Positions 6,948 to 42,245 of a stretch of DNA of 52,789 nucleotides are shown here, in pieces. Each line of letters begins with the position of its first letter. The first letter of the stretch is position 1. Both the position numbers and the translations under genes were made by a program. The notes beneath the pieces were generated by a model. The model was not told the DNA's origin. It searched no databases and was given only the letters and a program-made list of their open reading frames with translations. The stretch comes from Candidatus Thorarchaeota archaeon (GTDB taxonomy: Archaea; Asgardarchaeota; Thorarchaeia; Thorarchaeales; Thorarchaeaceae): NCBI GenBank assembly GCA_013388835.1, contig JACAEL010000035.1, positions 1 to 52,789 on the forward strand. Direction: 5' to 3'.

Positions 6948-8048
6948 TTACTCGGCGACATCACACCGTTTCAGGAACGGAAACGCTGTGTAGACAAGCT
7001 GGCTTGCGTCCGCGTAGTCCTCCGGGTTGACAATGTCCGAATAGGTCTCGCGTGGATACCGCTGGACGAACTGGTCAGCAAACAGCTGGAGCGAACGAAG
7101 CAGGACGAGGGTTGCGCGCTCCACCACAGCGACGAATATCACTCCCTCGTCTTCACGCGGCTCAATCAGTATCGCGCGGTTGGATGTAGACACTCTCCTG
7201 AGTGAGGATGCGGACTTCGAGGTCTCCTTCATGAACAGAGACATGGCACAGATGGCTGAAGACAACAGACCCGGGTCTGATACATCCGGGTCATGGCCAT
7301 AGGAGTACAGGTATACTCCTGAGTCTCGTATCACAGAGATTGAGTAGACGTCGACCGGCAGACGGTACATGTACTCTATGTCGGTGATAAGGGCAATCAC
7401 TATCATTAGCATCATTGAAATCCGGAGCAAGTCAAGGACCATCTCGACACTGAGACCCGTCAGCAGCGGTGTCCCTTGGAAGTTTGGTACGTCGTAGAGG
7501 ACGACGTTAATCACGTACGAAATGGAGATTGTCACAAGGGACAGAGCAATGACTGCGCTCCTCCTGTCGGCCTGTCGCTGGTTGGCCTCATGGAAGACCC
7601 TTGCTCCATGCAGGAAGACGACGATAGAGTACAGTGCAAAACCCGCCTTCCAGACAAGGGCAAGGATGTTGCCCTCAAGCGCAGGTTGAGAGAGACTGGC
7701 AAAGCCGCAGATGATCGTTGTTGTGCCCAGAAAGGTAACCAGAGATGCGACTCTCCAGTCGGGAAACTCCTGCCGCAGAGCCATGAAGAAGAGACCCATC
7801 AATGCGAACGTGAGGACCCAGAAACTGAGTGTGATCCTCAGTATGAGGTCAGAGGCGAGCCCGAGAGGATTGAACTCGGGTCCTGACAGGGCAACGTTTG
7901 TGATACCTGTCAATGAGCCGAGGGCAGTGGCCTCCTTGATGAAGTAGACCTTTCTTCTTGTCTTGCGTTCCCTTATCCCAAAGACCATTGTGATCAGAAG
8001 GAAGCCTGTGATGAGCCCAAGGCCGACTATGAACAGACCCAAATCCAT
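6948..8048 (-). CDS. Membrane protein with C-terminal longin/roadblock-like domain (locus 1)
   Basis: About 366 aa. Residues 1-225 form six or seven hydrophobic helices (GLFIVGLGLITGFLL; ITLSFWVLTFALMGLFF; VTFLGTTTIICGF; and others). The soluble C-terminus starts at PVDVYSISVIRDSGVYLYSY and has the order of a longin/roadblock-like fold: a strand with I-R-D-S-G-V-Y-L-Y-S-Y, a helix LLSSAICAMSLFMKE, strands RAILIEPREDEGVIFVAVV, a helix LRSLQLFADQFVQRY, and a final helix ASQLVYTAFPF. Such domains often bind small GTPases; a receptor-like role is inference. The start chosen (MDLGLF) gives a sensible N-terminus; an ATG 10 codons upstream is possible. It has the same architecture as the protein at 38087-39067. 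It lies downstream of, and in the same direction as, the His-less kinase at 8226, with a 177-nt gap containing hairpins. Confidence 0.8.
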   Translation of the reverse strand: MDLGLFIVGLGLITGFLLITMVFGIRERKTRRKVYFIKEATALGSLTGITNVALSGPEFNPLGLASDLILRITLSFWVLTFALMGLFFMALRQEFPDWRVASLVTFLGTTTIICGFASLSQPALEGNILALVWKAGFALYSIVVFLHGARVFHEANQRQADRRSAVIALSLVTISISYVINVVLYDVPNFQGTPLLTGLSVEMVLDLLRISMMLMIVIALITDIEYMYRLPVDVYSISVIRDSGVYLYSYGHDPDVSDPGLLSSAICAMSLFMKETSKSASSLRRVSTSNRAILIEPREDEGVIFVAVVERATLVLLRSLQLFADQFVQRYPRETYSDIVNPEDYADASQLVYTAFPFLKRCDVAE

Positions 8049-8116
8049 CCCATAACACCGCTGGACTCGGAGTAACACCGCCTAATGAAGAGACGCCTGA
8101 CATAGTGATGGAGCCA

Positions 8117-8175
8117 GTCCGGGTCTCTACGGTCGGCAAGGGCTCCGGACCTGCAGCAGCCCGCCCTTCGGGCTG
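8117..8175 (-). other. Hairpins between the PAS kinase-like gene and the membrane/longin gene
   Basis: The 177-nt gap between the two genes contains a compact 7-bp stem CAGCCCG / CGGGCTG with a 5-nt loop (8157-8175) and a second inverted pair GTCCGG / CCGGAC (8117-8122 with 8145-8150). They could be a processing or termination structure, or a leader of the membrane/longin gene. There is no long T-run, so termination is not clear. Confidence 0.35.
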
Positions 8176-8225
8176 GTATGCAGCTCGCGACTGGATGCTT
8201 CCTGCACCGCAACATGGGCAGCCCG

Positions 8226-9980
8226 TCATGTGTCTTGTGTTCCCACAAGCCCAAGCAGAGCTCCCATCACAACAGTCCTCAGGTCGTCCTCGCTGACATA
8301 ACCGGCCAGTTCCGTGTTGCGGATCCGGATTGTTGGCAGCGCAGGCAGCTCATCGACAGGCACTCCCGAGGCTGGGTCATCAACATCGATGATTCGGACG
8401 ATGGTATGGCTGAGACTCATCTCGTCCAGCAGGAGGTAGAGTGCCTCAAGGGTGGGGCCGCAGAACACGCAGTCCTCGGACTTGTAGAAGTCTATCACTG
8501 CCTCTTCGGTCACTGCCTCCATCTCGTCCATCCATGCAAGAAGCTCGACGACAAACTTGCATCCCTCTGACGAGCGACCTGCCACCCTGTCCTCAACCCA
8601 GACCCTTCCACCAAGAGCGCTGACAATGGTGCTGACCACGGTGAGCCCGAGCCCGCTCTCAATCGTCTTGTCACCGCTTCCTGATCGACGAAACACCCGC
8701 TCCTTCATCGCGTCAGGAATCCCGGGACCATGGTCGATGAACTCGATTCGTACCTTCTTCCTCTTGTCTGCGAAGGAGGCCTTGACCTCGACTGCGACCT
8801 CTTCATCAGTGTCATACATCAGAGCGTTGTGAAGTATGTTGAAGAATACGCTCCAGAGAAAGGCATGGCCTCTAACCATGAACGCCCCATCTCGGATGTT
8901 GGTCTTGATTGTCAGCGTCTTCTGTGCGAAGTCCCGACTGGCCTCTCGTCTTCCTCGTTCAAAGTGCGGGTATAGATTCGTCTGCTTCTGAGGAGGCGGA
9001 GAGTCTCTGAGGTAAATCAGAGTCCTCATGTTGGCAATCATTCGTGCAGCTCGCCTGATGTTCCATGAGGTCTCCTGCAGTATCCTGCGGTGTTCTTCGC
9101 TGAGGTCAGCAGTGCCAGACAGTAGCTCCAGTGAGTAGAGCGAACTCTGGTTCACTCTGTTGAGGTCGCTGGTCATTATGCCCAAGTAGAGGTCGGCCCG
9201 GTCCTTCTCTTCCCGGACTCTCGCTTCCGCAGCTCTCCTGCGCGTGACATCAAAGGCGGTGAGGCCAATCTCGCTTGGCTTCTCGCCACTGTATGTGAGA
9301 GCACGCGACGAGAGCGAGACCCATATCAGTCGCCCGTCCTTGCGCTTGAGCTGCACTTCAATGCCTGAGACCTCCTTCCCACGCAAGACCTCTTTGAGCA
9401 CCTGGTCGGCCGGGTCATATGTCTGCGGCCGCTGAGCGAGGAAGTCAGAAAGTGTCTTTCCTATCACTTCGGAAGCGTCATAGCCCAACAGTGACTCGGC
9501 TTCCTGGTTCACCTGCTCGACTGTGCCGTTCCGGTTGAGGGTGAAGTAGGCCACGGGTGACATGTCGTAGAGTGACGCGAAGCGATTCTCAAGCTGAGTG
9601 ACGGCCGTTTCCAGTGACACCTCCCTTGTGATGTCACGCACCGTGAGAAGAACGGCATCCGAACCCTGATACTGCACGGCCACCGGTCTCATGTCGGCAT
9701 GGACTACGTCGCCGTCCTTCGAGCGCAGACGCGTCGTGAATCGTGCGAGACTCTTTCCCGCATAGAGAGAGTCCAGTGTCTTTCTGTCCGTTCGGCGTGA
9801 CAACGGGTCGATCAGATCCTCGAACCGGGAGTCTAGGAGTGCCTCCTTCGTGTAGCCCACTATCTCAGCGAAGGCGGAGTTCAGTTCGATGATGTCCTCA
9901 CCGTCTAGGACGACAATGCCGTCATGCAAGACGTCGAGCAGCCTCTGAAACAGGTCCGGACTGTCTGGGGTCTTGGGCAC
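8226..9980 (-). CDS. PAS-PAS histidine-kinase-like protein lacking the phospho-acceptor His, with C-terminal thioredoxin-like domain
   Basis: About 584 aa, cytoplasmic (no membrane helix). Two PAS domains lie at about residues 8-120 and 135-255, followed by a DHp-like helix pair and an ATPase domain with N-box FFNILHNALMYD, G1 DHGPGIP and G2 SGLGLTVV. In the H-box, archaeal kinases usually read M-S/T-H-D-I/L-N; here it is IMTSDLNRVNQ, so the His is Ser (codon 9168-9170, about residue 271). The C-terminal 90 residues (from EEAVIDFYKSEDCVFCGP) form a thioredoxin/glutaredoxin-like domain with a CxxC and a likely cis-Pro (ALPTIRI). A GTG start at 9980 was chosen because GGTGAC stands 5 nt before it; a GTG at 10058 overlapping the upstream stop is the alternative. 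It may sense redox state and act without autophosphorylation, or transfer phosphate through another residue; both are inference. Confidence 0.85.
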   Translation of the reverse strand: MPKTPDSPDLFQRLLDVLHDGIVVLDGEDIIELNSAFAEIVGYTKEALLDSRFEDLIDPLSRRTDRKTLDSLYAGKSLARFTTRLRSKDGDVVHADMRPVAVQYQGSDAVLLTVRDITREVSLETAVTQLENRFASLYDMSPVAYFTLNRNGTVEQVNQEAESLLGYDASEVIGKTLSDFLAQRPQTYDPADQVLKEVLRGKEVSGIEVQLKRKDGRLIWVSLSSRALTYSGEKPSEIGLTAFDVTRRRAAEARVREEKDRADLYLGIMTSDLNRVNQSSLYSLELLSGTADLSEEHRRILQETSWNIRRAARMIANMRTLIYLRDSPPPQKQTNLYPHFERGRREASRDFAQKTLTIKTNIRDGAFMVRGHAFLWSVFFNILHNALMYDTDEEVAVEVKASFADKRKKVRIEFIDHGPGIPDAMKERVFRRSGSGDKTIESGLGLTVVSTIVSALGGRVWVEDRVAGRSSEGCKFVVELLAWMDEMEAVTEEAVIDFYKSEDCVFCGPTLEALYLLLDEMSLSHTIVRIIDVDDPASGVPVDELPALPTIRIRNTELAGYVSEDDLRTVVMGALLGLVGTQDT

Positions 9981-10054: not shown

Positions 10055-11329
10055 TCACTCATCGGAGAAGGCAACAAACTCCTCTGGACCGGATACTTCT
10101 TCGGAGAGCCGCTCAAGCAGTGAGTCCAGATAGTCGCAGCTACCTGCCTTCACAATCTCTGTCACTATCGAGCTCATGTGCGAGCTCAGATGCAGAGTGC
10201 TGTCCAGACGGCCTTCCCTGATGAGCATCTCGAGGTCCGGTACTCCTCTCTCAATGGTCGCTGCCAACTCGTGAAAAGGTCTGCTCTTGGACCAAGGCAG
10301 GCCCAGCAGGTAGTTCTGATAGAACTCGATGTCCAACAGGACTCCCAGAGTGGTGACATTCGCCTGTGGTTCGTCGCGAGTGGCATGACGTACGGAGCGG
10401 TCTCTGATCCCCACTTTCGCCGCAATACGATGGCCCTTGAGCATCTTGTTGCACGGCAGCTGCTTCCAGTCGGGTCGCCCGTATCTATCGTTGTTCGAGT
10501 ACGCGCGTTGGAGGAGATGGACGTACTCTGGAAACCGCCGTGCAATGACACGCAAGAAGTATTCCTTCTGTCGTCCGGGCTTGAGCGTGAGACCACCGAA
10601 CTGTATGAACTCCCCACCAGCACGCCGGGTCTCCTCAGCAAGTGCAGTCATTTTCTCGTCGGTATCACCTATCCACGGAATCAGCGGCACAGACATGACG
10701 CCACCGAATATGCCTGCACGACGCACCTCTTTCAGTGCAGCGAATCGGTCCGGGGTCGGGGACGCCTTGGGCTCGATGACCCTGCGCTTCTCCTCGTCTG
10801 CAAGTGTCACGGTGAACATCACGTTTGCGAACGCGGCCTCATGTATCTCCTTCAGCAGGTCCAAGTACTGAAGCACATAGTCCGACTTGGTCAACACCAT
10901 GACTGGCAGCCGGAAGTCCAGAAGAGTTCCCAAGACGCGCTCGGTCACATGGTGTTCTCTCTCAGCAGGCTGGAACCCGTCGGACACACCTCCACAGACT
11001 CCAACCACAATGGGCCGTGGGACGTCTCTCTCGATTCTCGACGCATCATCCTCATCAAGAAAGCGATAGAGGGTCTCGGTCTCTAGGTGTGATCTGGAGA
11101 CGAATCCCTCTCTTGTCAGTTCTTTCCGCAGTATCTCAGCAGCGTTCTCCTTCACTCGTATGTGCGTTGTGAAGTCCTCTACATGATAGTGCTCAGCCAT
11201 GCCGTCGCAGTAGACGCACCCGTGTTCACACCCGCGATATGCGTTCAATGAGCGATTCGTGTGGAACCAGCAGTCGGCCGTTATGTGTTTGGAGAGAAGT
11301 GACTTCGCCTGTATGCACTCGTACCTCAT
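10055..11329 (-). CDS. Radical SAM protein, SplB-like (COG1533 type)
   Basis: About 424 aa. The radical SAM cluster motif is at residues 34-41, in YRGCEHGCVYCDG (CxxxCxxC), preceded by LNAYRGC as in the COG1533 family related to spore photoproduct lyase but of unknown substrate. It is followed by family segments IVVGVCGGVSDGFQPAE and LPVMVLTKSDYVLQYLDLL (TIM-barrel strands), FTVTLADEEKRRVIEPKASP, and MSVPLIPWIGDTDEKM. The C-terminal third (after about residue 270) contains a Cys-containing segment KQLPCNKML. A [4Fe-4S] cluster and SAM-based radical chemistry are expected. It is upstream of the PAS kinase-like gene on the same strand. The start codon is an ATG with no clear ribosome-binding site. 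Confidence 0.88.
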   Translation of the reverse strand: MRYECIQAKSLLSKHITADCWFHTNRSLNAYRGCEHGCVYCDGMAEHYHVEDFTTHIRVKENAAEILRKELTREGFVSRSHLETETLYRFLDEDDASRIERDVPRPIVVGVCGGVSDGFQPAEREHHVTERVLGTLLDFRLPVMVLTKSDYVLQYLDLLKEIHEAAFANVMFTVTLADEEKRRVIEPKASPTPDRFAALKEVRRAGIFGGVMSVPLIPWIGDTDEKMTALAEETRRAGGEFIQFGGLTLKPGRQKEYFLRVIARRFPEYVHLLQRAYSNNDRYGRPDWKQLPCNKMLKGHRIAAKVGIRDRSVRHATRDEPQANVTTLGVLLDIEFYQNYLLGLPWSKSRPFHELAATIERGVPDLEMLIREGRLDSTLHLSSHMSSIVTEIVKAGSCDYLDSLLERLSEEVSGPEEFVAFSDE

Positions 11330-22779: not shown

Positions 22780-25700
22780 TCACTGGTGCTCACGCCTGCT
22801 CCGGACTCGAACCACCACCCCGACCACCACGACTACAGGTATTGCCACCAATATCGAGATGGTCAATGCCACAGCAGACACATCCTCAAGGCCTTGCCAG
22901 CTCGCGACGAGAGGCACGGGTGGAGGCTTTGTGCGGTTGGTGATGCAGTAGGTCGTGCCGCCGTAGTAGTAGATCACGTCCTTGCCATCGAGACCATCGT
23001 ATTGGCCAACCCGAAGGTAGGTGGGCGAGTGTGTCATCGCGTACGCACCCAGCACATCTCCGGTCGTCGACTCGATGATGGCAAAGTGCTCCTCAAGCAT
23101 GAGCACAATGTCCATCACTCCGTTCTCATCCATGTCGGAGAGCACCATCTTCTTGGCTGTGGTGGTCGGCGCCTTGTAGTTCCATATTACCGAGTATGAA
23201 GGCCCATTGGACGCAATGATTCCAAGTTCATTGGTGTTCACAATCACCTCGGCTGTTGGCGTGCCGTCTATGTTGTACACGTCTATGCTCGCCACTGTCG
23301 CATTCATGTTCACCTGCCAGAACGTGCCGCTGGCAGCACTCCAAGTCCAGGCCCAGCCCCCGTCCATCGCTACGGCAAAGTCCGTGTAGCTGTCCCCGTT
23401 GAGATTGCCCACCGCGACATCCACGACGAGCGGGTAGCCACTAGGCCAAGACCCCGCAAAGGCGCCGTCGCCCTCCCACATGAACAAGTCTCCGTCATGT
23501 GATGAGGAGATGCCGAACACTGCGATATCAGTCCGTGGAGTGTTCCAGAACTGGCCTGTGCGCACCATGGTCGGGTAGAATGAGGTGGCGTTGAGCGACC
23601 CCTTATACTTCTCAATCCCCGTATTGTCGTAGATTCGGAGGTAGGTGAGGTTCGCTGCCGTCGTGTACAGTATGGCGTACTCGAGCCCGGTAAGAGTGGT
23701 GTCGAAGTCAGCCACGGAGAACACGTTGATGCGTGTACCCGTGGGTGCGACCTTCTCTATTGCACTCAGTGGGTGACCGTTGACACCGTCAAGCCCAATC
23801 ACGCAATACACACCCGTCTTGTTGAGCAGGACGAGCAGGTCGTGCGTACCGTTTCCACCGAAGTCGCCGAACTGAATGTCGAGCACATGCCCGTTAGAGT
23901 CGAAGCTCCAGAGAAGATCTGGATGAACTGTGTCATAGACGTATATGTGGTCGTCGTTGCCAGCCACGATGCACTCTGGGGCGCCGTCCCTGTTGACGTC
24001 GTATGTCCAGACCCCACGGTTTGATTCGCGCCCAACAAGGGTTTCCTTCCAGTAGACAGACCACTGGTCGAATGCCTCCGGAGGATCTGGTGTCCATGGA
24101 AAGACCTCGTCAATTGCACGCACGTCGCCGCTGGTAGACCTGAACCCGGCAACTTCACACATGCCGTCCTCATCGAAGTCGCCGACTGCCACTTGATTGT
24201 AGCTGGCCCCGGCTACGGAGTCAAAGTACACCACGACACCGGTCAGTGCGTCCAATGCGATGAGGAAACCGTCAGAGGTACAGATGCCCACACCCAGTCT
24301 GCCGCCCGCAAACGTGCCCAGCATCGCATCATTGATTGTTCCATGGTCAGGAGCGTCCCACATGTAACTCCATATGACACGCCCTGAGGTGAACTCCTCC
24401 AAGTACACTCCGTGCTGAGTGACGTAGACTGCCTCGAACACACTATCAAGGTCGAAGTCTTCGACCCATAGCCAACGGATGTTGTCGGGTGGGATGACTG
24501 TCGAGTTGTAGATCACAGAGCGGTTCACGGGGTCTATCGCCCAGAGGTGTGCAAGCCCGGTCACGATGTCATCTACCCCGTCCGAGTTCAAGTCCGCCAG
24601 CGCCATCCGAATGAGATCGCCGCCAGTGGATGCATGTACTCCGAACATGATTGAGCCATCAGTCCCGTTGAGGAAGTAGAATGAACCGTTTATGGCCTTC
24701 ACAGCAACATCCAGGTGAGCACTTCCGGTGAAGTTGCCCACCACAATCGAGTGGCCACCCATACCAACCGGTAATGTTGTGTTCCAGAGAACTGTCCCGT
24801 TTGGCTGAAGGGCAACAACCCATCCATACACGCATCCAGTCACAAACTCGGTCGTCGGGTCGCCATGAATATCACCCATAGCAACCCCGTCAGGGAAGAT
24901 AGGTCCCACGAGAGTATGACTCACAGCTATTCCGGACTCAGCTCTCAGTATCGTGAAGTTCCCATCCCATCGACTGACACCAATGTATGGTTGTCCACTC
25001 GAAGTGAGATTCCCGACCTCAATCCAGAATGGGTCTCCTGTGTACAGACTGTTTACCCAGAGCTGTGTACCATTGCCGTCATAGCAACGCACTGCTCCGT
25101 TGTCCTCACCGACTACTATGTCATCACGCCCGTCCCCATTCACATCAAAAACCGCCAGTGGTTGGCTGAGTCCGAAGTAGGAGACCTGTGCACCAATGGT
25201 GCTATTCCACAACTCCGCGGAATGGAGCAGGTTGACACGTCCTGTGCCAACGTCAACGTACTCGAGGGCGTATGACTCACCTCTCTCACAGGACACGGCT
25301 ATCTCCTCGAAGCCGTTGCCATTCGAGTCATAGACAGACACTCCGGTCACCGGCTGTGCGTATATGCTTGAAAGCCATGCCTCCTCGTGTTGCATGATCC
25401 CGCCTCCGGTATTGGAATGGGTCAGCTCATATATGCCCACCCGGTTCTCGAATCCCACAGCGACCTCACGTCTGCCATCGCCATCCGTATCGCCGACATC
25501 CATGTCCACGACACTCTCAATGTTGAAGTGCGAGAACCTCGAGGAGGGATTGATTGCCCAGAGTAGTGTGGCGCTCTCGTGATACTTGGCCCTGTGGTAG
25601 GGGCTCACAGCCCCGGATATGTACGCAGGGCTGAGTTCAGTCGTTCCGGGTGACCAGAAGTCGAACGCATGCACCTGCATGAATCCGCCGCCCCTGAGCC

Positions 25701-28700
25701 CAAGCACACTCGGGGAGAGTGCGTTCGGTGCGTACATCTTCACCGTTTCGTTGAAGTAGTACTGCACTCCGCCTCCGGGCAGTTCTACTCGAATCCACGA
25801 CTGCGGGAAGGTGGCAAGTGGCTCGTGTTGGCGCCACATGGTGTAGGAGTTCGAGTAGCTCATCTGGATTCGGTCCTCGACAGGGGACTCGACTGACTCG
25901 TACGTCACCATTAGCGTTTGTTCGGGAGCGTCGAGCATCCCAATGTCAGGATTGACCTCATTGTTGTAGGAGGAGGTGGCCTGATACACGGGGCTGTCGG
26001 TCCAGATGAAAGAGCTGTTGCTTATCGTCACAAAGATGTCAAGGTCCGTCTTGGCAAGCGTGTTGTTGCGCCCCGAGAAGGCCAGAGCGTAACCTCCATC
26101 AGGTAACATCATGATGTCAGCGGACTGCACATAGTAGTCCAAGTAGTTCCTGAAGCTTACTGTACTGGAAAAGGACCAGGAGCCGCCCCAGGATGAGAGC
26201 GTCCTGTAGTACAGTAGATTGTTTGTCTGGTAGGTGTATACAAGCCCAAGCTGGCTTCCGATTCTGCACAGAGACGGGTAGTCCCGCTGGGAAGAGGTGG
26301 GGAGTTGCGACCTTGGACTGTCCCATCCGCCACCGAGCCACTTTGACACCCAGATGTCATAGTTGTCAATTCCGCCGTAGTAGACATAGGTCTTCCATGT
26401 GAGATACAAGGTGCCATTTGGATTAAGGAAGAGGGAGGGCTGATACTCCTCTACTTCACTGCCTGAGTATGGAGGATACGTGCCAGTGTACACCTGCTGG
26501 GCATCTGACCATATGCCAAGTGGGACGTAATGGGACTTGTACCACAACTTGCCAGCCCTTGTGAACACGGACACTATCCAGTCATTGTTGTTGGTGAAGT
26601 AGTAGGCGATGTCGTTGTCGCCGCGGGAGGTCAGATATGGCTGTTCTCCAGTGTTGAGTATGCTCTTGAGGTCCAGATAGGGATAGTTCGGGGAAGACGT
26701 GACGACATCAACCTTCACGTAGCCCTCAGCTGCAGAGTACTCCCAGATATCGAACCCCTGACTGTGACCTATGATGATCTCCTGTGCAGAGTCGTAGTCC
26801 TGGTCATCGATCACAAGGCTCGTCACTGGGTTCCAGTAGGTCACTTCCATCGGAGCGCCCCATGCCTCGGCGAACGTTGCCCCGCGCCACTCGTACACCT
26901 TGACAAACCCGTCCTGTCGAATCTGAGTGACATTGGCTCTTCCTCCGATGATGAGCTCGCGGAAGCCGTCCTCGTCAGTGTCACCGGTGACGATGGTCTC
27001 AATGGACGCTTTCATGAAGTCCTCGTTTGCCCCATTACCAATGAGGTAGTATCGTCCTTCGAGAGAGGGACTGCTCATGAAGTACTCGATTGAAGAGTAC
27101 CAGGAGTTGAAGGCGATGTTGTAGACGAAGAGGAATGGGCCTGCCGCAATGACAAGCTCCCTCTGACCGTTCAGGTCAAGGTCGTCGCCAGCGGCAAGTG
27201 CAGTTATCTCGCTCACATAGTCCCAGCCCTCAGTGTCTGCGAAGTCCGAGTCACGTAGGTCGATTGTGTAGACGAGGCGATACGTGTCATCGATGCCGGT
27301 GTCCTCAAAGACGTAGACCTGCAGGTCGGTGGATGCTATTAGCTCACGCAGGTTGTCGCGGTCCAGGTCACAGCCTGCCACAATGTGCTTGACATGGTCC
27401 CATATCACGCGATGGAAAGTGCCTGACAGACCCTCCAGTTCTTCCCACATGTACGGGCTGGTGTCACTTATCACAGTGTGGTTTATGTCAAAAGACCGGA
27501 AGGCACGCTTGTAAGTGTTGTTGACCATGTGCTCGAAGATGTATATGTTGTTGTCATAGTCACCCACAATCACCTCGCCCTTGCCGTCAGAGTCTACATC
27601 GCCTGTGCGCACTGTGAGCGTCCAGTTCTCAATATCCGCCGAAGTGCTCCATGACTCGGTCGCATGATAGCCGAAGTTCAAGGCGTTCTTGCTCTGGATA
27701 GAGAACTCGTATCTGTACACGGTGGGGTATGTGGCCAGAGCATAACTGGCACTCTGGTCGTAGACTGGATAGAATATGGCCATCTGCTCTGTGTCCTGCT
27801 TGTAGGCCATCATCGTGTACTGCCCACCACCCAGCGTCACCATCGCCTGGTTGACCTCAGCCCAGAAGTCCTGAGGCAGGTTCCAGTTGTAGGGCACAAT
27901 GCGAATCCCCGTGAAGTGGTTGTACTTCAGGTTGGTCTCAGGCCTGCTGTTTGAGAAGAGCTTCTTGTTCTGGACCCAGACAGGATCATCTCTCGTGCCC
28001 TTGTTGAGCCAGCATGTAGCTCCCTCACGAGTGTCATAACTCAGAATCAGGTCAAGGTCTCCGTCATTGTCTATGTCAGCGACCTCTGGCTGACCCCAGT
28101 AGTCGTTCATGGAGTCTCCACTGTTCATGATGTCAAAGTAGCCCTTGTGCATCCGGAACTTGGGCACCAGAGCGCCTCCGGGGATGCCTATGTTCTCACA
28201 GTAGTAGAGATAACCGGTCGACAGTATCATGTCCAGGTCTCCATCCCCATCCCAGTCCACGAACTTCATCCTTGGGACCGTCTTGGCGTTCGACAGAGCG
28301 ACTACTATATCACCCGTGTCATCGACCTCAGCAGAAGTGTAGGTGTTAAGCGTAGAGAAGGGGTCGGTGGAGAGTTCTCTAGTATAGAATATGATCTCGC
28401 CCCACATCAGACCTGAGCCACTGCCGTATTTGTCCGCTAATGATATCTCCGGGTTGTAAGAACCCACCGCCGCCACAGGCATCTGGAACACGTTGAACAG
28501 TGCAAGTTCAACTGATATCATATCGGTGGGGGTGTACTCGTTCTCGATTCCCGTAAAGTAGCCCTCTGCGGTGAGGTCTTCCTCAAGACTGCCTCCCACC
28601 GTGTTCCATGGGTTGGGATCCGTCTTGTACACATAGATCTGGTTGCCCGAGTCGACGACTATCATCTCGTGGGGGTTCATTCCACCCACCCAGTCCAACT

Positions 28701-30702
28701 GGTACAGGTCACCTACAGTCCAGTGACGGTAGGTTCCTGCGACGGGCATCTGATAGGCGACACCGCCAGCAAGCCATGTGGGTATGTTCGTAGTGTGACC
28801 CAAGTACACCATGTCCCACACGTTCGTGCCCAGGCTGAAGAAGTCGTCACGTGAAGAGTCCCACATGAGGTCGTACTTGAGCGTGGTTGCGTTGTACTTG
28901 AAACCGTAGAAGTTGCCTATGACAGTTGAGACTAGAAGCCGGTCGGGTTCGTTGGGTGGGCCGTACAGGTTGAATGCCTCGGGCAGCGGACCGATTGCCA
29001 CCGTGAGTGCTGTCGTAAGCTGAGTATAGACTTGCATCAGCTCAATGGAATCTATCCGATACTGCACACCATTGAAGACTGATATCTTAAGATAACGGAA
29101 CCAGTCCCATTGCCGCGCACCGAGGGCGTCGTCCACATCGACATACAGGTAATTGCCAGAGACGAACATCCGCTCCCTCTCAATCTGCTCAAAGTCGGTG
29201 CTGCTCTGGCCGACTGACACGTTGACATTCAAGAGATTGGGTGCGGCATAGAACTTGATTCTCAGGTCCCACGCTGAACTTGCACTTCCCGTACCCTCCT
29301 CATCACGTCCAAAGTCGATGATGGCCGTCGCATTGGGTGCCGTGTTGGCATTGAAGTAGGTATAGTGCCCATCTGAGGCGTTGGCCATTCCAGTGTTGTA
29401 GGGGTAGGCTTCGGCAGGGGGCTCGGCATAGCCTCCAACCATGGTGTAAGTTATCGGCTCAGGAATGTCTGTGCCGTTGGCTAGGCGATAGGTCACGTTG
29501 TTTGCCTTGACAACTGCATCCGCCCAGAAGTCCAATCGCCACGGCGCCTCGGGCTGCATCTGCCACTCGTCCCATGGCCGGTACACTCGCTGGTAGCTGT
29601 ATGTGTTGGTTGCCTCGCTCCAGTCAAGAACGAACACACCCTGACCCTGAGCGACCAATGCAATCTCCTCGCCGTCTGTCTGGTCGAGCTCTCCAATCTT
29701 CATGTCGATGATTGGTGTCCATGTATAGTTCTTGGAAGTCCAGACTAGCTTGTAGTCGTTGTCGTTGATGAGCGGGAACGGCTGACCGTTTATCATCAGG
29801 TGCACACCGTCATTCTCGAAGACATATACGCGACCCTCTCGAGTCCCGGCAACAATCTCCGGAAGACCATTGAAGTTGGTGTCACCATAGGCCAGCGCGT
29901 AAATCCTACCGGTGATGGCGTCGCCGGAGTCCCAGACCTGGCGGAACTCAATCCAATGTTCATCACTGAACGGGTAGTTTGAGTGAGTGTCGTACTCAAA
30001 GCATCTCACCTTGCCGTCCCAACCACCGATGATGATGTCTGCACGATAGTCACGGTCAGCATCATATATCTTGACATCGAATGCACGGAACGTGTGGGGA
30101 GATGTCCAGACGTGATCAAACATGTTCTCAGTGTTTGCCTGAGGGTCGTAGATGTGCCTCTGCTCGAAGAGGTAGACAAAGCCGTCAGCACTTGCGGCTG
30201 CAACTTCAATGAAGTCGTTCAGGTCTGTGTCACCCCAGGCCAGAGCCATCACGTCGGAGCGTATGATACTGTCACCACTGTCCCAGACCTTGTCGAAGTC
30301 ACCGGTCTCGGAGTTCAGTCGCCAGATGTGAATCTCATTGTCATAGAGGTATCCGCCACCCAGCGCTAGGAAGCCGGTCGCCTCGTCGTAGGCGATTGCA
30401 TGAATTGCAGCCTTCGTCTTCCAAGGCTCAAATATGGTCGAGTACGCGTTGGTCTTGTCCTGAAGAACGAGACCAAGGTCCACCTCACTAGGTATACCAG
30501 GCTCGGTGTCTTCGGCGAGTTCCTTCAACACCTGGTTTGGAAAGTCATCAGGAGAGAGCTCCTCGTCGCCTATTGACTCCACAACTGCCTCCGCCTCGCC
30601 TGCTGAGAGGGTCGGAGCGGGAAGCGTTGGGATGATGCCAAATGAACCAACCAACATTACCAGCGCGATAAGCGCAGCCAGACTGAATACTCTCGTTCTC
30701 AT
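22780..30702 (-). CDS. Giant secreted FG-GAP/VCBS-repeat protein, membrane-anchored (2640 aa)
   Basis: Signal peptide MRTRVFSLAALIALVMLVGS, then about 2570 extracellular residues and a C-terminal helix (AVALTISILVAIPVVVVVGV) with a basic tail RVRSRREHQ. The body consists of many blade-like repeats with the FG-GAP/VCBS calcium-loop pattern: GDTDLNDFIEVAAAS, ADRDYRADIIIGGWDGKV, GDTNFNGLPEIVAGTREGRV, VDSDGKGEVIVGDYDNN, GDTDGDGRREVAVGF, FDVNGDGRDDIVVG and others to the end. These form several beta-propellers, as in integrin alpha chains and bacterial adhesins. Segments near residues 390-560 and 1400-1650 lack the motif and may be other beta domains. It is 7 bp downstream of the TSP3 protein and behind GGGAGG, so one operon. 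Likely a surface adhesin or matrix protein. Confidence 0.93.
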   Translation of the reverse strand: MRTRVFSLAALIALVMLVGSFGIIPTLPAPTLSAGEAEAVVESIGDEELSPDDFPNQVLKELAEDTEPGIPSEVDLGLVLQDKTNAYSTIFEPWKTKAAIHAIAYDEATGFLALGGGYLYDNEIHIWRLNSETGDFDKVWDSGDSIIRSDVMALAWGDTDLNDFIEVAAASADGFVYLFEQRHIYDPQANTENMFDHVWTSPHTFRAFDVKIYDADRDYRADIIIGGWDGKVRCFEYDTHSNYPFSDEHWIEFRQVWDSGDAITGRIYALAYGDTNFNGLPEIVAGTREGRVYVFENDGVHLMINGQPFPLINDNDYKLVWTSKNYTWTPIIDMKIGELDQTDGEEIALVAQGQGVFVLDWSEATNTYSYQRVYRPWDEWQMQPEAPWRLDFWADAVVKANNVTYRLANGTDIPEPITYTMVGGYAEPPAEAYPYNTGMANASDGHYTYFNANTAPNATAIIDFGRDEEGTGSASSAWDLRIKFYAAPNLLNVNVSVGQSSTDFEQIERERMFVSGNYLYVDVDDALGARQWDWFRYLKISVFNGVQYRIDSIELMQVYTQLTTALTVAIGPLPEAFNLYGPPNEPDRLLVSTVIGNFYGFKYNATTLKYDLMWDSSRDDFFSLGTNVWDMVYLGHTTNIPTWLAGGVAYQMPVAGTYRHWTVGDLYQLDWVGGMNPHEMIVVDSGNQIYVYKTDPNPWNTVGGSLEEDLTAEGYFTGIENEYTPTDMISVELALFNVFQMPVAAVGSYNPEISLADKYGSGSGLMWGEIIFYTRELSTDPFSTLNTYTSAEVDDTGDIVVALSNAKTVPRMKFVDWDGDGDLDMILSTGYLYYCENIGIPGGALVPKFRMHKGYFDIMNSGDSMNDYWGQPEVADIDNDGDLDLILSYDTREGATCWLNKGTRDDPVWVQNKKLFSNSRPETNLKYNHFTGIRIVPYNWNLPQDFWAEVNQAMVTLGGGQYTMMAYKQDTEQMAIFYPVYDQSASYALATYPTVYRYEFSIQSKNALNFGYHATESWSTSADIENWTLTVRTGDVDSDGKGEVIVGDYDNNIYIFEHMVNNTYKRAFRSFDINHTVISDTSPYMWEELEGLSGTFHRVIWDHVKHIVAGCDLDRDNLRELIASTDLQVYVFEDTGIDDTYRLVYTIDLRDSDFADTEGWDYVSEITALAAGDDLDLNGQRELVIAAGPFLFVYNIAFNSWYSSIEYFMSSPSLEGRYYLIGNGANEDFMKASIETIVTGDTDEDGFRELIIGGRANVTQIRQDGFVKVYEWRGATFAEAWGAPMEVTYWNPVTSLVIDDQDYDSAQEIIIGHSQGFDIWEYSAAEGYVKVDVVTSSPNYPYLDLKSILNTGEQPYLTSRGDNDIAYYFTNNNDWIVSVFTRAGKLWYKSHYVPLGIWSDAQQVYTGTYPPYSGSEVEEYQPSLFLNPNGTLYLTWKTYVYYGGIDNYDIWVSKWLGGGWDSPRSQLPTSSQRDYPSLCRIGSQLGLVYTYQTNNLLYYRTLSSWGGSWSFSSTVSFRNYLDYYVQSADIMMLPDGGYALAFSGRNNTLAKTDLDIFVTISNSSFIWTDSPVYQATSSYNNEVNPDIGMLDAPEQTLMVTYESVESPVEDRIQMSYSNSYTMWRQHEPLATFPQSWIRVELPGGGVQYYFNETVKMYAPNALSPSVLGLRGGGFMQVHAFDFWSPGTTELSPAYISGAVSPYHRAKYHESATLLWAINPSSRFSHFNIESVVDMDVGDTDGDGRREVAVGFENRVGIYELTHSNTGGGIMQHEEAWLSSIYAQPVTGVSVYDSNGNGFEEIAVSCERGESYALEYVDVGTGRVNLLHSAELWNSTIGAQVSYFGLSQPLAVFDVNGDGRDDIVVGEDNGAVRCYDGNGTQLWVNSLYTGDPFWIEVGNLTSSGQPYIGVSRWDGNFTILRAESGIAVSHTLVGPIFPDGVAMGDIHGDPTTEFVTGCVYGWVVALQPNGTVLWNTTLPVGMGGHSIVVGNFTGSAHLDVAVKAINGSFYFLNGTDGSIMFGVHASTGGDLIRMALADLNSDGVDDIVTGLAHLWAIDPVNRSVIYNSTVIPPDNIRWLWVEDFDLDSVFEAVYVTQHGVYLEEFTSGRVIWSYMWDAPDHGTINDAMLGTFAGGRLGVGICTSDGFLIALDALTGVVVYFDSVAGASYNQVAVGDFDEDGMCEVAGFRSTSGDVRAIDEVFPWTPDPPEAFDQWSVYWKETLVGRESNRGVWTYDVNRDGAPECIVAGNDDHIYVYDTVHPDLLWSFDSNGHVLDIQFGDFGGNGTHDLLVLLNKTGVYCVIGLDGVNGHPLSAIEKVAPTGTRINVFSVADFDTTLTGLEYAILYTTAANLTYLRIYDNTGIEKYKGSLNATSFYPTMVRTGQFWNTPRTDIAVFGISSSHDGDLFMWEGDGAFAGSWPSGYPLVVDVAVGNLNGDSYTDFAVAMDGGWAWTWSAASGTFWQVNMNATVASIDVYNIDGTPTAEVIVNTNELGIIASNGPSYSVIWNYKAPTTTAKKMVLSDMDENGVMDIVLMLEEHFAIIESTTGDVLGAYAMTHSPTYLRVGQYDGLDGKDVIYYYGGTTYCITNRTKPPPVPLVASWQGLEDVSAVALTISILVAIPVVVVVGVVVRVRSRREHQ

Positions 30703-30709
30703 CTTATAC

Positions 30710-33700
30710 TCACACTCCTCCCTTCTTGCCTGCTTTGGAGGCGCCTTTCTTTGTGCTCTTCGTGGACTTTGCTTTGGAATCAGATTCAGCCTCTTCGGTC
30801 GAACCTTCGGTCACACCGCCATCTCCGCCTCCGCCTCCGCCTCCTCCGCCGTCAGCAGACTTCCCTTTGGATGGTGCACCGCCTCGACGAAGCACCTTTC
30901 GTCCAAGCCAGCGGAAGGTCCCACGTACCTTCTTGGTCTTGTGATCGACGACGCCAAGCACGACCACGAGACCTACAACTCCACCCGCGAGAGCCACAAG
31001 ATGCCACGGGAATGGTGTGTCACCGGGCAGCACCACAAAGTGGGCGGTGGTTGCATGGATCACCCCAGTGTAGTTGCGGCCGTAGACTTCAAGGGAGATG
31101 TTGCCAGTGCTCCACCTGTGACCTGTACTCTGCCACATGCCTGCGGCGGGGTTGTAGCTCAGAGATATGTTGTTGCTCCATCCCGTACCATTGTTGTATC
31201 TGAACCAGACGTCCTGGAACGGTGTGAAGTTGGCCACGCTGACCTGTGTGTCCTGATAGGTCCTTGCGCCAGTCAGCGGGATCATCACTCTTATCGTGCT
31301 GACACCACGCATCACTGCCAGAGCAAGCTCAAAGTCGTGCTTTGAGGTGAAGGTCAACGGGTCCAGACCGAGAGAGACCTCAAGGCCGTCGGAGTAACCG
31401 TCCTTGTCAGTGTCCATCTTCAGAGGACTGGTGCCATAGACGTAGTACTCGGCACCATCAAGAAGACCGTCCAAGTCTGAATCGGGGTTCATGATACCAC
31501 CACCCATGGTGCCCTGCAGCCCCAGACCGAACTCTATCCCGTCGGGCAACCCATCGAAGTCCGTGTCGAACTCGAGTGTGTCAGGTATCCCATCGTTGTC
31601 CGAGTCCGTGTCCATCGGGTCCGATTCGTAGAACAGCACCTCAGCACCATCAGGTAGACCATCATTGTCGGAGTCGGGGTCGGTCGCGGAGGTGGCATAC
31701 AGAGCCTGTGCAAGTACGACGGGAGGCGGCATGTCAGAGAACCCTGCCAGATAGAAAGGTGGGACGTAACCGCCAATAGTACCATTGTCGCCCTCGCCTA
31801 TGCCAGTGGACCAGTTCTCCGGAGGCCAAGACCCGTAGGGCCAGATCTCTGTCAGGGTCTCTTCGTCGTCGTACAGGCCATCCCCATCCGTGTCTGCCTG
31901 AAGAGCCGAGGTGTTGTATACCCAGATCTCATACCAGTCGGATATAGTGTCGTTGTCCGTGTCATTGTTCGACGGGTTGGAATTGAATACGACCACTTCC
32001 TGATAGTCACTCAGAGTGTCATTGTCACTGTCGAAGACGACCGGTGAAGTGTTGTAACGCAGACGGACCGCAGGTATCTGGTATGGATAGATTATGCCGG
32101 TCACATTCTCCAGGAACAGCTCACTGCCGTCCGCTAGCCAGTCATCATCTGTGTCCTTGTCCAGCGGGTCTAGAAGCACTGGGTCCATGTATGGAATAAG
32201 GCCTGATGCGAGATACAGCTCTATTGCATCATCCAAGCCATCCAGGTCAGAGTCAGGAGATGTGACGTTTGTGTGATACAGCATCACTTCGTCATAGTCG
32301 CTCATCGGCCATGTCATGTCACCATACTCATTGGGTTGAGTTATGCTGTCCATGTCGGTATCCCAGTTGAGCGGGTCACACAGGTAGGTCTTGATCTCCT
32401 CACCATCCGACAGACCGTCGCCATCAGTGTCATAGACAAAGCAGTCAGTGTAGTACACAAAGAACTCCTCAAAGTCCGTGAGACCATCATTGTCCGAGTC
32501 TTCATCCATCGGGTCACTGCCCGTATAGAGGACCTCGAAACCATCACTGAGACTATCACCATCGCTGTCATCGGCCATTGGGTTTGAATGCCAGAAGAAC
32601 AGCTCCTCACCGTCGCTGAGTCCGTCAAAGTCTGAGTCAAAGACAGTGGGTGAAGTGCCGTACCGGAAGAACTCGTCACCATCTGCGACCATGTCGAGGT
32701 CCGTGTCCGGCGAGAGCGGGTCAGTGCCCAGCAGCAGGTCGGTCATGTCCGGCAGGCCGTCGTCATCAGTGTCTGCGTCCAGATAGAAAGTGTGGTTGCT
32801 GTCCTGACGCAAGACGCCTTCAAGACCATCCAGCAGACCATCGTCGTCGCTGTCACCGTCGGTTGGGTCGCTTGGAGGATCGAGGCATAGCTCGTAGCCA
32901 TCACTGTTCAGCCATGCGCCGGGTGGCGGGTTGGTGCGATCGGCTTCCGACACACCAGTGTCGCCATCAGTATCAGGATTGCACGGGTTTGTGTACACAT
33001 GCTTGTCGTATGGTTCGCCCTCGTCGTCATAGAGGATGATGTCGAAGCCTCTCACCTCAGCGCCGTCGTTCATCGGCCACTCCTGTCCCTCAGTACCTGC
33101 CGGGTGCAGTCGGGTGTTCAGCATATGGTCGATGTCTCCGTTGTACAACTGCAGGTAGGAGTCGTCATCAGTGTCAGCATCAAGCGGATGAGTATAGCCA
33201 TAGTTGAAGATGAGAGGTGATGGGTCAGACCCTGAGCCTGCGGTCTCATTGTAAAGTGAGTCGAGACCGTAGTATGCGCCTCCGGGGCCCTCCTGTCCAT
33301 CAAGCAGGGTGTCGCCGTCAGTGTCAGGGTTCAGCGGGTCGGTATGGTCATCGTACTTCACGCCACCAATCACCACGTACTCCACAGTCGGAGTGCACTC
33401 GGTGAGGTCCCATCTTGTATAGACCTCATATGCGTCAGTCAAGTGGTCACCGTCGGTGTCCTGAGCAAAGGGCGACGTGCCGTATACCCTTACCTCCTCA
33501 TAATCGGTCAGATCGTCCCAGTCTGTGTCCTGGTTTCTTGGATTCGTGCCCAAGTCCCACTCCTCTCCGTCGAGAAGACCATCACCGTCTGTGTCAGGGT
33601 TGACCGGATCGGTGTACATGGTCTGAACCTCAAGCTTGTCGTTGGCACCATCACCGTCTGTGTCAGGGTTGTTGGGGTCAAGACCGGGAACGCTCTCCTC

Positions 33701-38086: not shown

Positions 38087-39067
38087 CTAAAACGCCAGGC
38101 TGAATGCCTCGAGGCGGTAGCGAAGCTCTGGGATTGACCTCTGAGCCACCAGCATGGAAACGAAGTGCTTTCTGCGGTGAAAGAGGATGGTTCTCTTACC
38201 GTACTCTATCTCATCGAGTCCTCCTGAGTCGGCCAGGATCTCCCCGATGAGAGTATTGATACCGCTGATTGCCCCGGCAACAAGCATACCGTCCTTCGAG
38301 TCCGTGTCTTCCGTGCCTGACTTGTCGTCAAAACGCCGAAACCTGAAGTCTACGATGGGGAGGGATGCCTCAGAGCCCATCACCAGCAGGCGGTCCAGAG
38401 AGAGCAGCCAGCTCAAGTCCTCTGCCGAAGGTATTCCGCGCCATGAGTAGCTTATCATCAACGACCCAGCCAGAACCAACGCGTTCTTTGCCATGAAGAC
38501 CTCAGGGACACCCCACAAGACCAGCATGAAGTTTGCAAACCCGCTCATGGCAAATCCAACGCCAAAGTAGAGCTCCGGAAACGTCTTCCGCGCGGTCTCC
38601 AGTTCCATTACACGCTCGATGTACGTGTATGTCACATAGACAATCGCGATGGACAGTCCCACGAACACTAGCCACGTTGGACCCCCAGTGAACATGGGCA
38701 CCAGTGACACTATGGTATAGGCCACACTAATGAGAAACACATAGTACTTGCCTATCCCAACGAAGGCAAGGTCCGACTCCATAGAGTACACGAGGTACAG
38801 GATTCCACCAATCCATACGAATGTCCCGACTGCAGACAGGTAGCTCGCTTGTACATAGGGCGCATAGAGGTAGTCCATGTTGGTCATGAATGTGTACACG
38901 GCAAAGGTCGCGAAGTATGCTGAGAGACCGCCCGCCCCAGACACGCGTCCGGGCCGCTTCTTGTAGAAACCATAGGATATCACCACTAGTACAGACGCAG
39001 TCAGGAATGTGAATCCCACATTGACGTCCCGTATCACGATAGATGCAAGGTCGAGCTGCATATCCAT
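38087..39067 (-). CDS. Seven-helix membrane protein with longin/roadblock-like C-terminus, interrupted by TAG (locus 2)
   Basis: 326 aa up to the TAG. Residues 1-215 form seven helices (VNVGFTFLTASVLVVISYGF; LSAVGTFVWIGGILYLVYSM; TWLVFVGLSIAIVYVTYTYI; and others). A soluble domain from about 220 (LSWLLSLDRLLVMGSEASLP) contains DGMLVAGAISGINTLIGEIL, IEYGKRTILFHRRKHFVSML and SIPELRYRLEAFSLAF, where it stops in the middle of a helix; the rest of the domain continues in frame (37997-38086). It has the same architecture as the protein at 6948-8048. It is divergent from the pseudokinase-like gene at 39197, with 129 bp shared promoter space. Either a truncated gene, a sequencing error, or a readthrough codon. 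TAG is a normal stop for about a third of the genes here, so general recoding is unlikely. Confidence 0.8.
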   Translation of the reverse strand: MDMQLDLASIVIRDVNVGFTFLTASVLVVISYGFYKKRPGRVSGAGGLSAYFATFAVYTFMTNMDYLYAPYVQASYLSAVGTFVWIGGILYLVYSMESDLAFVGIGKYYVFLISVAYTIVSLVPMFTGGPTWLVFVGLSIAIVYVTYTYIERVMELETARKTFPELYFGVGFAMSGFANFMLVLWGVPEVFMAKNALVLAGSLMISYSWRGIPSAEDLSWLLSLDRLLVMGSEASLPIVDFRFRRFDDKSGTEDTDSKDGMLVAGAISGINTLIGEILADSGGLDEIEYGKRTILFHRRKHFVSMLVAQRSIPELRYRLEAFSLAF

Positions 39068-39196: not shown

Positions 39197-41467
39197 GTGG
39201 ATGGCTTGAAGCGAATGGACTCCGAGTCCCTCAGAATGGGAGTCGGTATGCTGGCGATGGGTTCACTGGGGGTCCTATTCATCGCTGCAGAAGTGCCATG
39301 GAACACTCCAAGTGCGGCGACGGCAGTGTACTCGGTGCTCGCATTCCTCTGTATCACGATGACAGTGTGCAGCGCGAGCCGCATGAGGATTGACAGGTCA
39401 CCCCACCACGGCGTGTTCGCAGCAGGCACAGCACATGCAGCGATTGTGTTGGGTGGTGCAAGCATCTTCTACCTGTACAACCACGAGGGTCCTGCACTCC
39501 ATGCAACCACCCCGGGGATAGCCCTCAATCTTGTCGCTCTTGCGACCACCGGGCTCATAATGATGCTTCATGCCAGACTGCAGTCCAGTCCACAGCGGAA
39601 TGAGTCCGTATGGATGACACGGAGGGCCCTTGGTACGCTGATTGCTGTCCCAACCGCACTGTTCGTTGTCGCGATGGCCTTCTTCAGGCAGCCTTTCCCG
39701 CCCTGGCTGTTTCTGTCTGTCGGCTACTTGGTTGGTGGGGTGGCAGTCTTCGCATACCTAGCGGCCGCAATCATCATGTATCGTCAATATCGGACTACTG
39801 CTTCGAGCGAGTCGATACGACTGAGCGTGTCGTTCGTACTACTTGCCGGGGCCGCCGCATCACACATGTCAATCATGCATTCGCCATCGTTTCTCTGGCT
39901 TGCCATGGTCACATTGATGGCAATCTCGTTTGTAATCGCGATTGTCGCAAAGGGATACACCTTCTTGGTAGATGTGGGAGTGGAAAGGAATAGCGCATAC
40001 CTGATCTCGGTGTCAATCAGCGCACTGGTCGTCCTCCCATTTCTAACTTCAGTACTACTGCAGGCATTAGTCCCAGTCTATTCACATGTCGACGTGGGCG
40101 CCGCCGCTGCCATTCATCTGGCAGGAGTCGTTCTCACCGGCAGCCTTGCATATGCCACGTTCGTCAGGTCGAGGACACTCAGCTCGCAGAACCTCAGTAT
40201 AGTCATTATGATGCTGCTGACATGGTCAGTGTCAGAACTGGCGATGGCCCTGATATATGCCGGCTCAATGCTCGGTGGACCTTCCGAATCCCTCATGCCA
40301 TATGTGACGGGAGCGCTGACCCTTGTCCTGTTCCTGTCGCTGGCAGTCCGGATTGTACTTAGACCACAAGTGACAAGAGCTCGCCATTCGGGCCTGTTCT
40401 ATCTGGCCGTCATGGCGGGCTACGCACTACTGGTTGTGGTCGCTGAAGCGTTTCAGCGGGTCATCGGCTCATCTCTTGGTGATGATCAGATTCGAAGACT
40501 GGACGCCAGTGTCCTCCTCGGACTTAGCTATGTGGGCCTATTCATTCTGCTCAGTCTGATTCTTCTCCTTGCGGGAAAGTGGGGAGGAACAGTGACCTTC
40601 GATGCAGCGGCCACGGGCGCAGTCGCAATATGGCTAGTGATGATGATAGCCAAGGCTAGCTTCTCACCCTACACGATTGGGTGGTGGGCCGGAGAGGTAC
40701 TGCTGGCATCGTCGTCAGCCATTCTTCCGTTTACGATGGTTCGTTCCCAGATACGTCACTCCTGGAATGATGAGGCCCTGCAGCGCAGCCAGGCTGCTCA
40801 GATCGCTCTTGTTGCAGAGATGGCCCTTGCACACCATCGCGCGACACTGGACACTCTGGAAGACCTGATTCAATGCAGAAACCCGACTGACGAGACACTG
40901 GCCTCACTGTCTGCGAGCATGAACGAGGTGTCACATGCTCATGACCTTGTCAGAGTCATCGATGCAATAGTCTCTGGACACCGGTTCTCGCCGGAGGTGT
41001 TGGAGCCACTCGACTTCGTTGGTTGCATCACAGAAGGGGTTGCGAAGCAGAGAGGAGGTGGGACTGTCGAGTACAAGGTGGACCGAAAGACAGGGGAGTG
41101 CGTGGTGATGGCCAACTCGTTTCTGTCTGAGGCAGTCCAGCTCTTCGTCAGCGGGGTGGTCACAAGGATAGGACCGGCGAAGAGCATAGGGGTCAACATG
41201 GTCAGTTCGTCCGTGGATGGCAGGCCGACCTGGAAAGCGACCATAACTCTCCGGCTGGACTCACCAGACGCGGAGTCCAAGAGGACGCTGTTGGAGAGAT
41301 ACGCCAGTCCTGGAAGCACCGGTGCGATAGAACTGGGCCTGGCGCAAAAGCTTGTAGAGATGATTGGAGGCCGGACACAAATGGGCATCGAATCGACCTC
41401 AACAGAGGCGCTTCGTGTGGTGTTTCACATAGAACTGCCGGCCGCGACTCCAAGCTCAGCAATGTGA
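39197..41467 (+). CDS. Sixteen-helix membrane protein with degenerate histidine-kinase-like C-terminus
   Basis: 756 aa. Residues 1-525 contain about sixteen hydrophobic helices and match no sensor family that I recognise. The C-terminal 230 residues follow the order of a histidine kinase: a DHp-like pair around LVAEMALAHHRATLDTLEDL (a His is present), a linker, and an ATPase-like region. In that region the N-box Asn is absent (ANSFLSEAVQLFVSGVV), the G1 motif is replaced by LDSPDAESK (no DxGxG), and only the G2 part persists (GSTGAIELGLAQKLVEMIGG). Hence ATP binding is doubtful and the protein looks like a pseudokinase. The start is GTG; an ATG at 39215 is possible. It is divergent from the 7TM/longin-like gene and precedes the small GTPase gene in the same direction. 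Confidence 0.78.
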   Translation: MDGLKRMDSESLRMGVGMLAMGSLGVLFIAAEVPWNTPSAATAVYSVLAFLCITMTVCSASRMRIDRSPHHGVFAAGTAHAAIVLGGASIFYLYNHEGPALHATTPGIALNLVALATTGLIMMLHARLQSSPQRNESVWMTRRALGTLIAVPTALFVVAMAFFRQPFPPWLFLSVGYLVGGVAVFAYLAAAIIMYRQYRTTASSESIRLSVSFVLLAGAAASHMSIMHSPSFLWLAMVTLMAISFVIAIVAKGYTFLVDVGVERNSAYLISVSISALVVLPFLTSVLLQALVPVYSHVDVGAAAAIHLAGVVLTGSLAYATFVRSRTLSSQNLSIVIMMLLTWSVSELAMALIYAGSMLGGPSESLMPYVTGALTLVLFLSLAVRIVLRPQVTRARHSGLFYLAVMAGYALLVVVAEAFQRVIGSSLGDDQIRRLDASVLLGLSYVGLFILLSLILLLAGKWGGTVTFDAAATGAVAIWLVMMIAKASFSPYTIGWWAGEVLLASSSAILPFTMVRSQIRHSWNDEALQRSQAAQIALVAEMALAHHRATLDTLEDLIQCRNPTDETLASLSASMNEVSHAHDLVRVIDAIVSGHRFSPEVLEPLDFVGCITEGVAKQRGGGTVEYKVDRKTGECVVMANSFLSEAVQLFVSGVVTRIGPAKSIGVNMVSSSVDGRPTWKATITLRLDSPDAESKRTLLERYASPGSTGAIELGLAQKLVEMIGGRTQMGIESTSTEALRVVFHIELPAATPSSAM

Positions 41468-41621: not shown

Positions 41622-42245
41622 ATGATGATGCGAAAAGCCCCCAGACAGGTCAAGCTGGTTCTTGCAGGGGACGGCGGAGTGGGGAAGACGAGTATCCGAC
41701 GGCAATACCTCGGGAAGATATTCCGGGCATCCTACATTCCTACCATCGGAGTAGACTTCGCCCAGAAGTCAGTCCTCGTGGACGACACACCTGTGACTCT
41801 GATCATATGGGACATTGCAGGACAGCCGATGTTCAAGACACTGAGGAAGCGATACTACGAAGGCTGCAGCGCAATCGTCCTCGTCTATGCCATTGACAAC
41901 AGGGAGTCATTTGATAACGCGCTGAAATGGCTGGTCGAGGCATACGAGTTCATGGGCAAGCTGCCATCTGTGCTCATCCTCGGAAACAAGACGGACCTCC
42001 GTCAGACTGCCTCAAACAAGGGTTTGGTCTCTACTCTGGAGGGAGAGGAGTTTGCACTTCAGGTGGCCGACAGAATGGGTACCACGGTGTTGTTCCGGGA
42101 GACGACCGCAGTCACTGGAGAGGGCATAGAGGAGGCATTCACGGATGTCACCAGACTGGTGTTAAGCAGGTGCCGGCCATCCGACTCACTTGGACGCCGC
42201 TCCGACCCAGTCGAAAGGACAGATAACAGCTTCAGAGTGCGGTAG
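41622..42245 (+). CDS. Ras/Rab-like small GTPase
   Basis: 207 aa GTP-binding switch protein. G1 GDGGVGKTS (residues 16-24), G2 Thr in YIPTIGVDF, G3 WDIAGQ, G4 GNKTD (Asn122-Asp125). The G5 position reads TTAVTGEGIEEAF, where the usual S-A-K is T-A-V. The switch regions match Rab/Ras type rather than Arf or MglA type. The Gln of G3, needed for hydrolysis, is present. The last 25 residues (SRCRPSDSLGRRSDPVERT) are basic and lack a C-terminal Cys box, so no prenyl anchor is expected. Small Ras-like GTPases of this quality are abundant in Asgard archaea. Its neighbours are a pseudokinase-like protein and a longin-like receptor. It overlaps the end of the convergent DMT gene by 14 nt. Confidence 0.92.
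   Translation: MMMRKAPRQVKLVLAGDGGVGKTSIRRQYLGKIFRASYIPTIGVDFAQKSVLVDDTPVTLIIWDIAGQPMFKTLRKRYYEGCSAIVLVYAIDNRESFDNALKWLVEAYEFMGKLPSVLILGNKTDLRQTASNKGLVSTLEGEEFALQVADRMGTTVLFRETTAVTGEGIEEAFTDVTRLVLSRCRPSDSLGRRSDPVERTDNSFRVR

Follow-up and report, generated by a model that had tools for sequence, protein, structure and literature searches.

The window, by which we mean the whole stretch of 52,789 nucleotides analysed here (host genome of 3.0 Mb, from a Thorarchaeota member of the Asgard archaea), brings together two things that are probably unrelated: a family of membrane proteins with seven transmembrane helices (7TM) and a C-terminal longin domain, to which A1 and A2 belong, and two separate clades of putative pseudo-histidine-kinases, to which B1 and B2 belong. 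We give a probability of about 0.55 to this reading, according to which the neighbourhoods of A and B genes are mostly incidental. An earlier note on this DNA had located the four open reading frames, all of which were found at their places (Table 1). Between the two pairs lie two very long adjacent minus-strand reading frames (22780-37300; 2640 and 2196 aa), the second showing, by eye, Asp-rich thrombospondin type 3-like repeats.

Table 1. Features of the two A-B neighbourhoods, in window coordinates.
Feature	Position	Strand	Remarks
A1, 366 aa membrane protein	6948..8048	-	N-terminal ~7 TM helices and C-terminal longin domain
A1 TM part, N-terminal, ~7 helices	about 7365-8048	-	
A1 longin domain, C-terminal	about 6951-7376	-	
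B1, putative PAS-PAS-DHp-HATPase-Trx/Grx pseudo-histidine-kinase	8226..9980	-	Pfam PAS_9 and HATPase_c; motif table; tree
B1 H-box LGIMTSDLNRVNQ	9144..9182	-	Ser where sister proteins carry the phospho-accepting His
B1 HATPase domain	8541..8858	-	Intact N-box FFNILHNA, G1 DHGPG, G2 SGLGL
B1 C-terminal thioredoxin/glutaredoxin-like domain	8229..8549	-	CVFC 8457-8468; cis-Pro-like LPALPT 8328-8345
A2, 326 aa, 7TM and longin	38087..39067	-	Last ~30 residues of the domain behind an in-frame TAG
In-frame TAG cutting A2	38087..38089	-	Homology picks up again (SEYRDALDRF...) to about 38000
B2, 756 aa multi-TM protein, decayed DHp/HATPase region	39197..41467	+	
B2 former N-box/G1/G2 stretch (VQLFVSGV, LRLDSPDA, TGAIELGLAQ)	41114..41371	+	
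Ras-like small GTPase, downstream of B2	41622..42245	+	Pfam Ras 1.6e-41

A1 and A2 have no significant match to any Pfam family. Related sequences are plentiful within the same taxonomic family, and the orthologues of A1 share 42-47% identity over their full length. In the AlphaFold2 model of the C-terminal 142 residues of A1 (pLDDT 87.7) the elements follow the order β-β-α-β-β-β-α-α, which is that of longins, and the best matches of this model in the PDB are Ragulator, TRAPP and Mon1 (E 3e-5 and weaker). The model of A2 (pLDDT 87.9) displays seven helices, then β-β-α-β-β-β-α; at full length its PDB matches are weak (E 0.0075 and up) and mostly of the same fold class. Both models, together with their fold matches, conform to the longin order β1-β2-α1-β3-β4-β5-α2(-α3), the last helix missing from A2 because of an in-frame TAG. 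At the level of sequence, single members of the family match Fuz_longin_1 (best 4.5e-5) and Robl_LC7 (7.6e-4), and one matches 7TMR-DISM_7TM (6.6e-4); the A1 domain of the window itself stays short of the curated cut-off for a longin match (Fuz_longin_1, E 0.13). A1 and A2 belong to a large family of Asgard membrane proteins in which a 7TM part is followed by a C-terminal longin domain, and the earlier note had rightly described A1 as ending in a longin/roadblock-like domain and A2 as having the same architecture. At four loci (L117, L275, L287, L293) the gene beside the 7TM-longin gene encodes a protein that begins with a VLFIWDV-type sequence; it recurs as a neighbour more regularly than any kinase, and at L293 it has a match to the 2-hydroxyacid dehydrogenase NAD-binding domain. 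Elsewhere, in several genomes (L219, L221, L282), a soluble longin protein of ~430 aa adjoins a MinD/ParA-like ATPase gene.

The TAG that ends A2, absent from the earlier note like the GTPase gene after B2, falls inside the longin domain. As TAG is a common stop in the host genome, closing 55 of 130 genes, its recoding is an unlikely explanation. The second pair might be decaying, A2 being a young pseudogene and its nearness to B2 functionless, and the resumption of homology past an ordinary stop speaks for this. We consider it rather improbable, however: B2 sits in a widely retained clade, the stop may have arisen through a misassembly, and the shortened longin domain may, to judge from its model, still fold.

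B1 is, according to Pfam, a PAS-PAS-histidine kinase in which the N, G1 and G2 boxes are all present and the phospho-accepting His required of an active enzyme is replaced by Ser (MTSDLN, versus MTHDLNN in sister proteins), in agreement with what the earlier note had read. Among 40 relatives, His is absent in 21 (11 Ser, 7 Gln, one each Asn, Lys and Arg) and kept in 19, the His-less rows making up one clade (support 100/99). The conservation of this well-supported clade over many Thorarchaeia rules out a recent pseudogene; B1 is, on the evidence of its sequence, an old pseudo-kinase with a His-bearing sister clade alongside. Its named close relatives are almost all contigs of Candidatus Thorarchaeota, with one labelled Lokiarchaeota. 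In 12 genomes one His-less and one His-bearing copy coexist; among the 13 genomes having a His-less copy, G023 is the only one where it stands without the other. The C-terminal domain, not mentioned in the earlier note, carries CVFC and LPALPT; its profile matches are weak, the best of them all being to thioredoxin, glutaredoxin and protein disulfide oxidoreductase, which also top its list of weak PDB matches, and CxxC is kept in all rows of the family that reach the C-terminus.

In several genomes the His-bearing sisters of B1 adjoin genes for TusA, DsrE, DUF5400, a P-type ATPase and an ABC transporter (Pfam run on the L230 and L235 genes only), a company suggestive of the redox sensing of sulfur or metals. 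As cases in point, at four loci (L230, L231, L240 and L243, in G016, G005, G007 and G010) a His-bearing PAS-PAS-HK-Trx paralogue stands beside genes of the DsrE and DUF5400 types, TusA and a P-type ATPase being frequent further neighbours, and is a candidate sulfur/metal redox sensor (Pfam on L230). The gene upstream of B1 codes for a radical-SAM protein (10055-11329), and its orthologue lies less than 10 kb from A2-type genes in G018 and G008 (loci L111 and L112). A His-less kinase-like protein of an Asgard genome, KKK40347.1, has been mentioned earlier (PMC10343646); in one body of open-access literature no description was found of HK-Trx fusions or 7TM-longin proteins in Asgard archaea.

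B2 belongs to a different family, that of multi-TM kinases of ~750 aa. The earlier note had seen that its kinase-like ATPase region had lost the N-box and G1; the His and most of G2 are gone too, which leaves B2 far from an active histidine kinase. The region still matches a HATPase profile (E 8e-5, with a profile iterated on relatives and hence partly in-sample). Fifteen rows without His and ATP motifs, B2 included, are set apart from the rest by a single branch with full support (SH-aLRT 100), and three His-bearing rows of the family (L141, L270, L274) are also partly devoid of ATP motifs. This single pseudo clade, with its support of 100, rules out recent pseudogenization. Judged again from sequence, B2 is an old pseudo-kinase, its clade extending across many Thorarchaeia beside a His-bearing sister clade. 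In both conserved pseudo-kinases, the loss of kinase residues fits a non-catalytic role.

The earlier note had taken the repeated pairing for a signalling module, in which a longin-type receptor and a kinase-derived scaffold or nucleotide sensor would form a dedicated pair. Two pairs within one window favour this proposal, as do the recurrence of the A1-B1 adjacency in a second genome, G012, and the presence of other longin genes near His-less B1 in G018 and in species of genus g4 and its relatives. It is, to be sure, an unlikely one, as the adjacency of A and B genes is in most cases not conserved and is therefore weak evidence for A and B working as a unit. Orthologues of A1 occupy seven loci in six genomes, and B1 adjoins at two of them, the window and G012, with the gene order swapped between the two. 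Two genomes with A1, G008 and G015, yielded no His-less B1, which rules out an obligate pair. The A2 orthologues occupy six loci: B2 is nearby in the window, a His-less B1 is near, with one gene between, at G018:C121, an intact response-regulator-kinase fusion is near, again with one gene between, at G018:C71 and in G008, and no kinase-like gene is near in G019 and at G000:C60. Some kinase-like gene, of three unrelated kinds, is found within two genes of A2-type genes in 3/5 lineages. As for B2, at the other loci examined no longin gene stands within three genes, some of the contigs ending nearby, so that A2-B2 is ruled out as a conserved pair.

Measured against the refuting condition of the earlier note, that homologues in related genomes adjoin kinase-like genes no more often than chance, the module fares poorly. 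Longin and HATPase genes lie less than 5 kb apart 14 times, versus 4.8 expected, among the matches listed in ten related genomes, and 3 times, versus 3.1 expected, in nine other genomes; both comparisons are rough, since many genomes are fragmentary and the first set was counted among the matches listed. We give no weight to the enrichment in the first set, in view of this way of counting, of the relatedness of its genomes and of the negative replicate. Ras genes are likewise not enriched within 5 kb of longin genes (3 versus 4.7 expected), and proximity does not designate them as true partners.

One observation within the B1 family still favours the module proposal. Of the 21 His-less B1 rows, 9 have a longin gene no more than two genes away, versus 0/21 His-bearing rows, the background being near 3% per locus (a rough estimate from gene counts). 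The nine rows are those of the window, G012 and G018 together with six rows, close to one another, from a single subclade, hence about four lineages only. The longins concerned are of three kinds (A1-type, A2-type and a soluble type of 416 aa), a diversity that tells against a dedicated pair. Neither this contrast nor the proximity of kinase-like genes to A2-type genes is expected under pure chance, and both tell against our preferred reading. What ties longin genes to the His-less B1 clade is a loose, recurrent link, real enough to test, and not a fixed module.

If, as we prefer, the A and B proteins are mostly incidental neighbours, the 7TM part of A1 and A2 would most likely receive a signal, and the longin domain, whose fold is apparent in the models, would dock a partner. 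By the example of TRAPP, Mon1 and Ragulator, that partner would probably be a small GTPase. B1 would most likely use its PAS and Trx-like domains to sense the redox or thiol state. It may still bind ATP, autophosphorylation at the usual His being precluded by the Ser in its place; by analogy with DivL (PMC4211667), it would serve as allosteric partner either to a response regulator or to a real kinase, and for the latter the His-bearing paralogue, present in 12/13 genomes with a His-less copy, is a candidate. B2 would act as a sensor in the membrane, with its former kinase region reduced to protein binding only, as a non-catalytic scaffold. That Thorarchaeia have a class of 7TM receptors whose longin domain talks to both small GTPases and dead histidine kinases seems to us quite improbable; if true, it would be a direct junction between a eukaryote-type GTPase system and a bacterial-type two-component system. 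Asgard archaea possess eukaryote-like trafficking parts. A link between the two types of signalling can be tested on concrete proteins, namely the large, receptor-like 7TM-longin family and the two conserved pseudo-kinase clades, one of them equipped with a Trx-like redox domain and accompanied in the same genomes by a His-bearing sister.

Longin/roadblock domains had been said in the earlier note not to be partners of two-component systems. This is contradicted by known systems: in conservons (PMC4316618, PMC13343842) a roadblock protein and a Ras-like GTPase accompany a sensor kinase, the response regulator RomR works together with MglA/MglB (PMC9481161), and among the output domains of response regulators NitrOD3 is related to Roadblock (PMC5847659). 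The locus at 38-42 kb invites comparison with the first of these. The genes for A2, B2 and the Ras-like GTPase are contiguous there. In G007 and G017, the genes most closely related to B2 also have a GTPase of the same subfamily no more than two genes away, and in G007 a 7TM-longin gene shares the same ~10 kb. A conservon-like G-protein module, where the pseudo-kinase sensor B2, A2 and the GTPase would control each other and the GTPase would be the output, is nevertheless highly doubtful: G007 and G017 make up one genus, the GTPase is absent from other B2 loci, Ras genes show no enrichment around longin genes, and A2 is truncated. Actinobacterial conservons (CvnA-D) share with this locus a kinase-like membrane sensor, a protein of the roadblock/longin superfamily and a Ras-like GTPase; they are defined by a conserved synteny that includes CvnC, whereas synteny is not conserved here, no CvnC-like gene was seen in the locus, longin is fused to 7TM, and B2 is without any of the catalytic motifs retained by CvnA8 (PMC13343842).

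The C-terminal domain of A1 and A2, as modelled, shares its fold superfamily with the eukaryotic longin GTPase regulators Mon1-Ccz1 and the small TRAPP subunits, and with Ragulator, from all of which it differs in its position C-terminal to a 7TM region. The same superfamily includes the Asgard roadblock/longin proteins of PMC10933270, the main text of which describes fusions to GTPases and leaves transmembrane architectures unmentioned (0 occurrences of the word). NitrOD3 (PMC5847659) places a Roadblock-related domain inside a two-component system, as the output domain of response regulators, unlike the 7TM proteins A1 and A2. For B1, the counterpart is DivL of Caulobacter (PMC4211667). B1 is set apart from it by its archaeal sequence and its C-terminal Trx/Grx-like domain, and the B1 clade by the variety of residues, Ser, Gln, Asn, Lys or Arg, at the His site. 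Both proteins combine PAS domains with a histidine-kinase-like core that is devoid of kinase activity (as B1 is predicted to be), both coexist with real kinases in the same cell, and partner binding, which replaces phosphotransfer in DivL, would do so in B1 as well.
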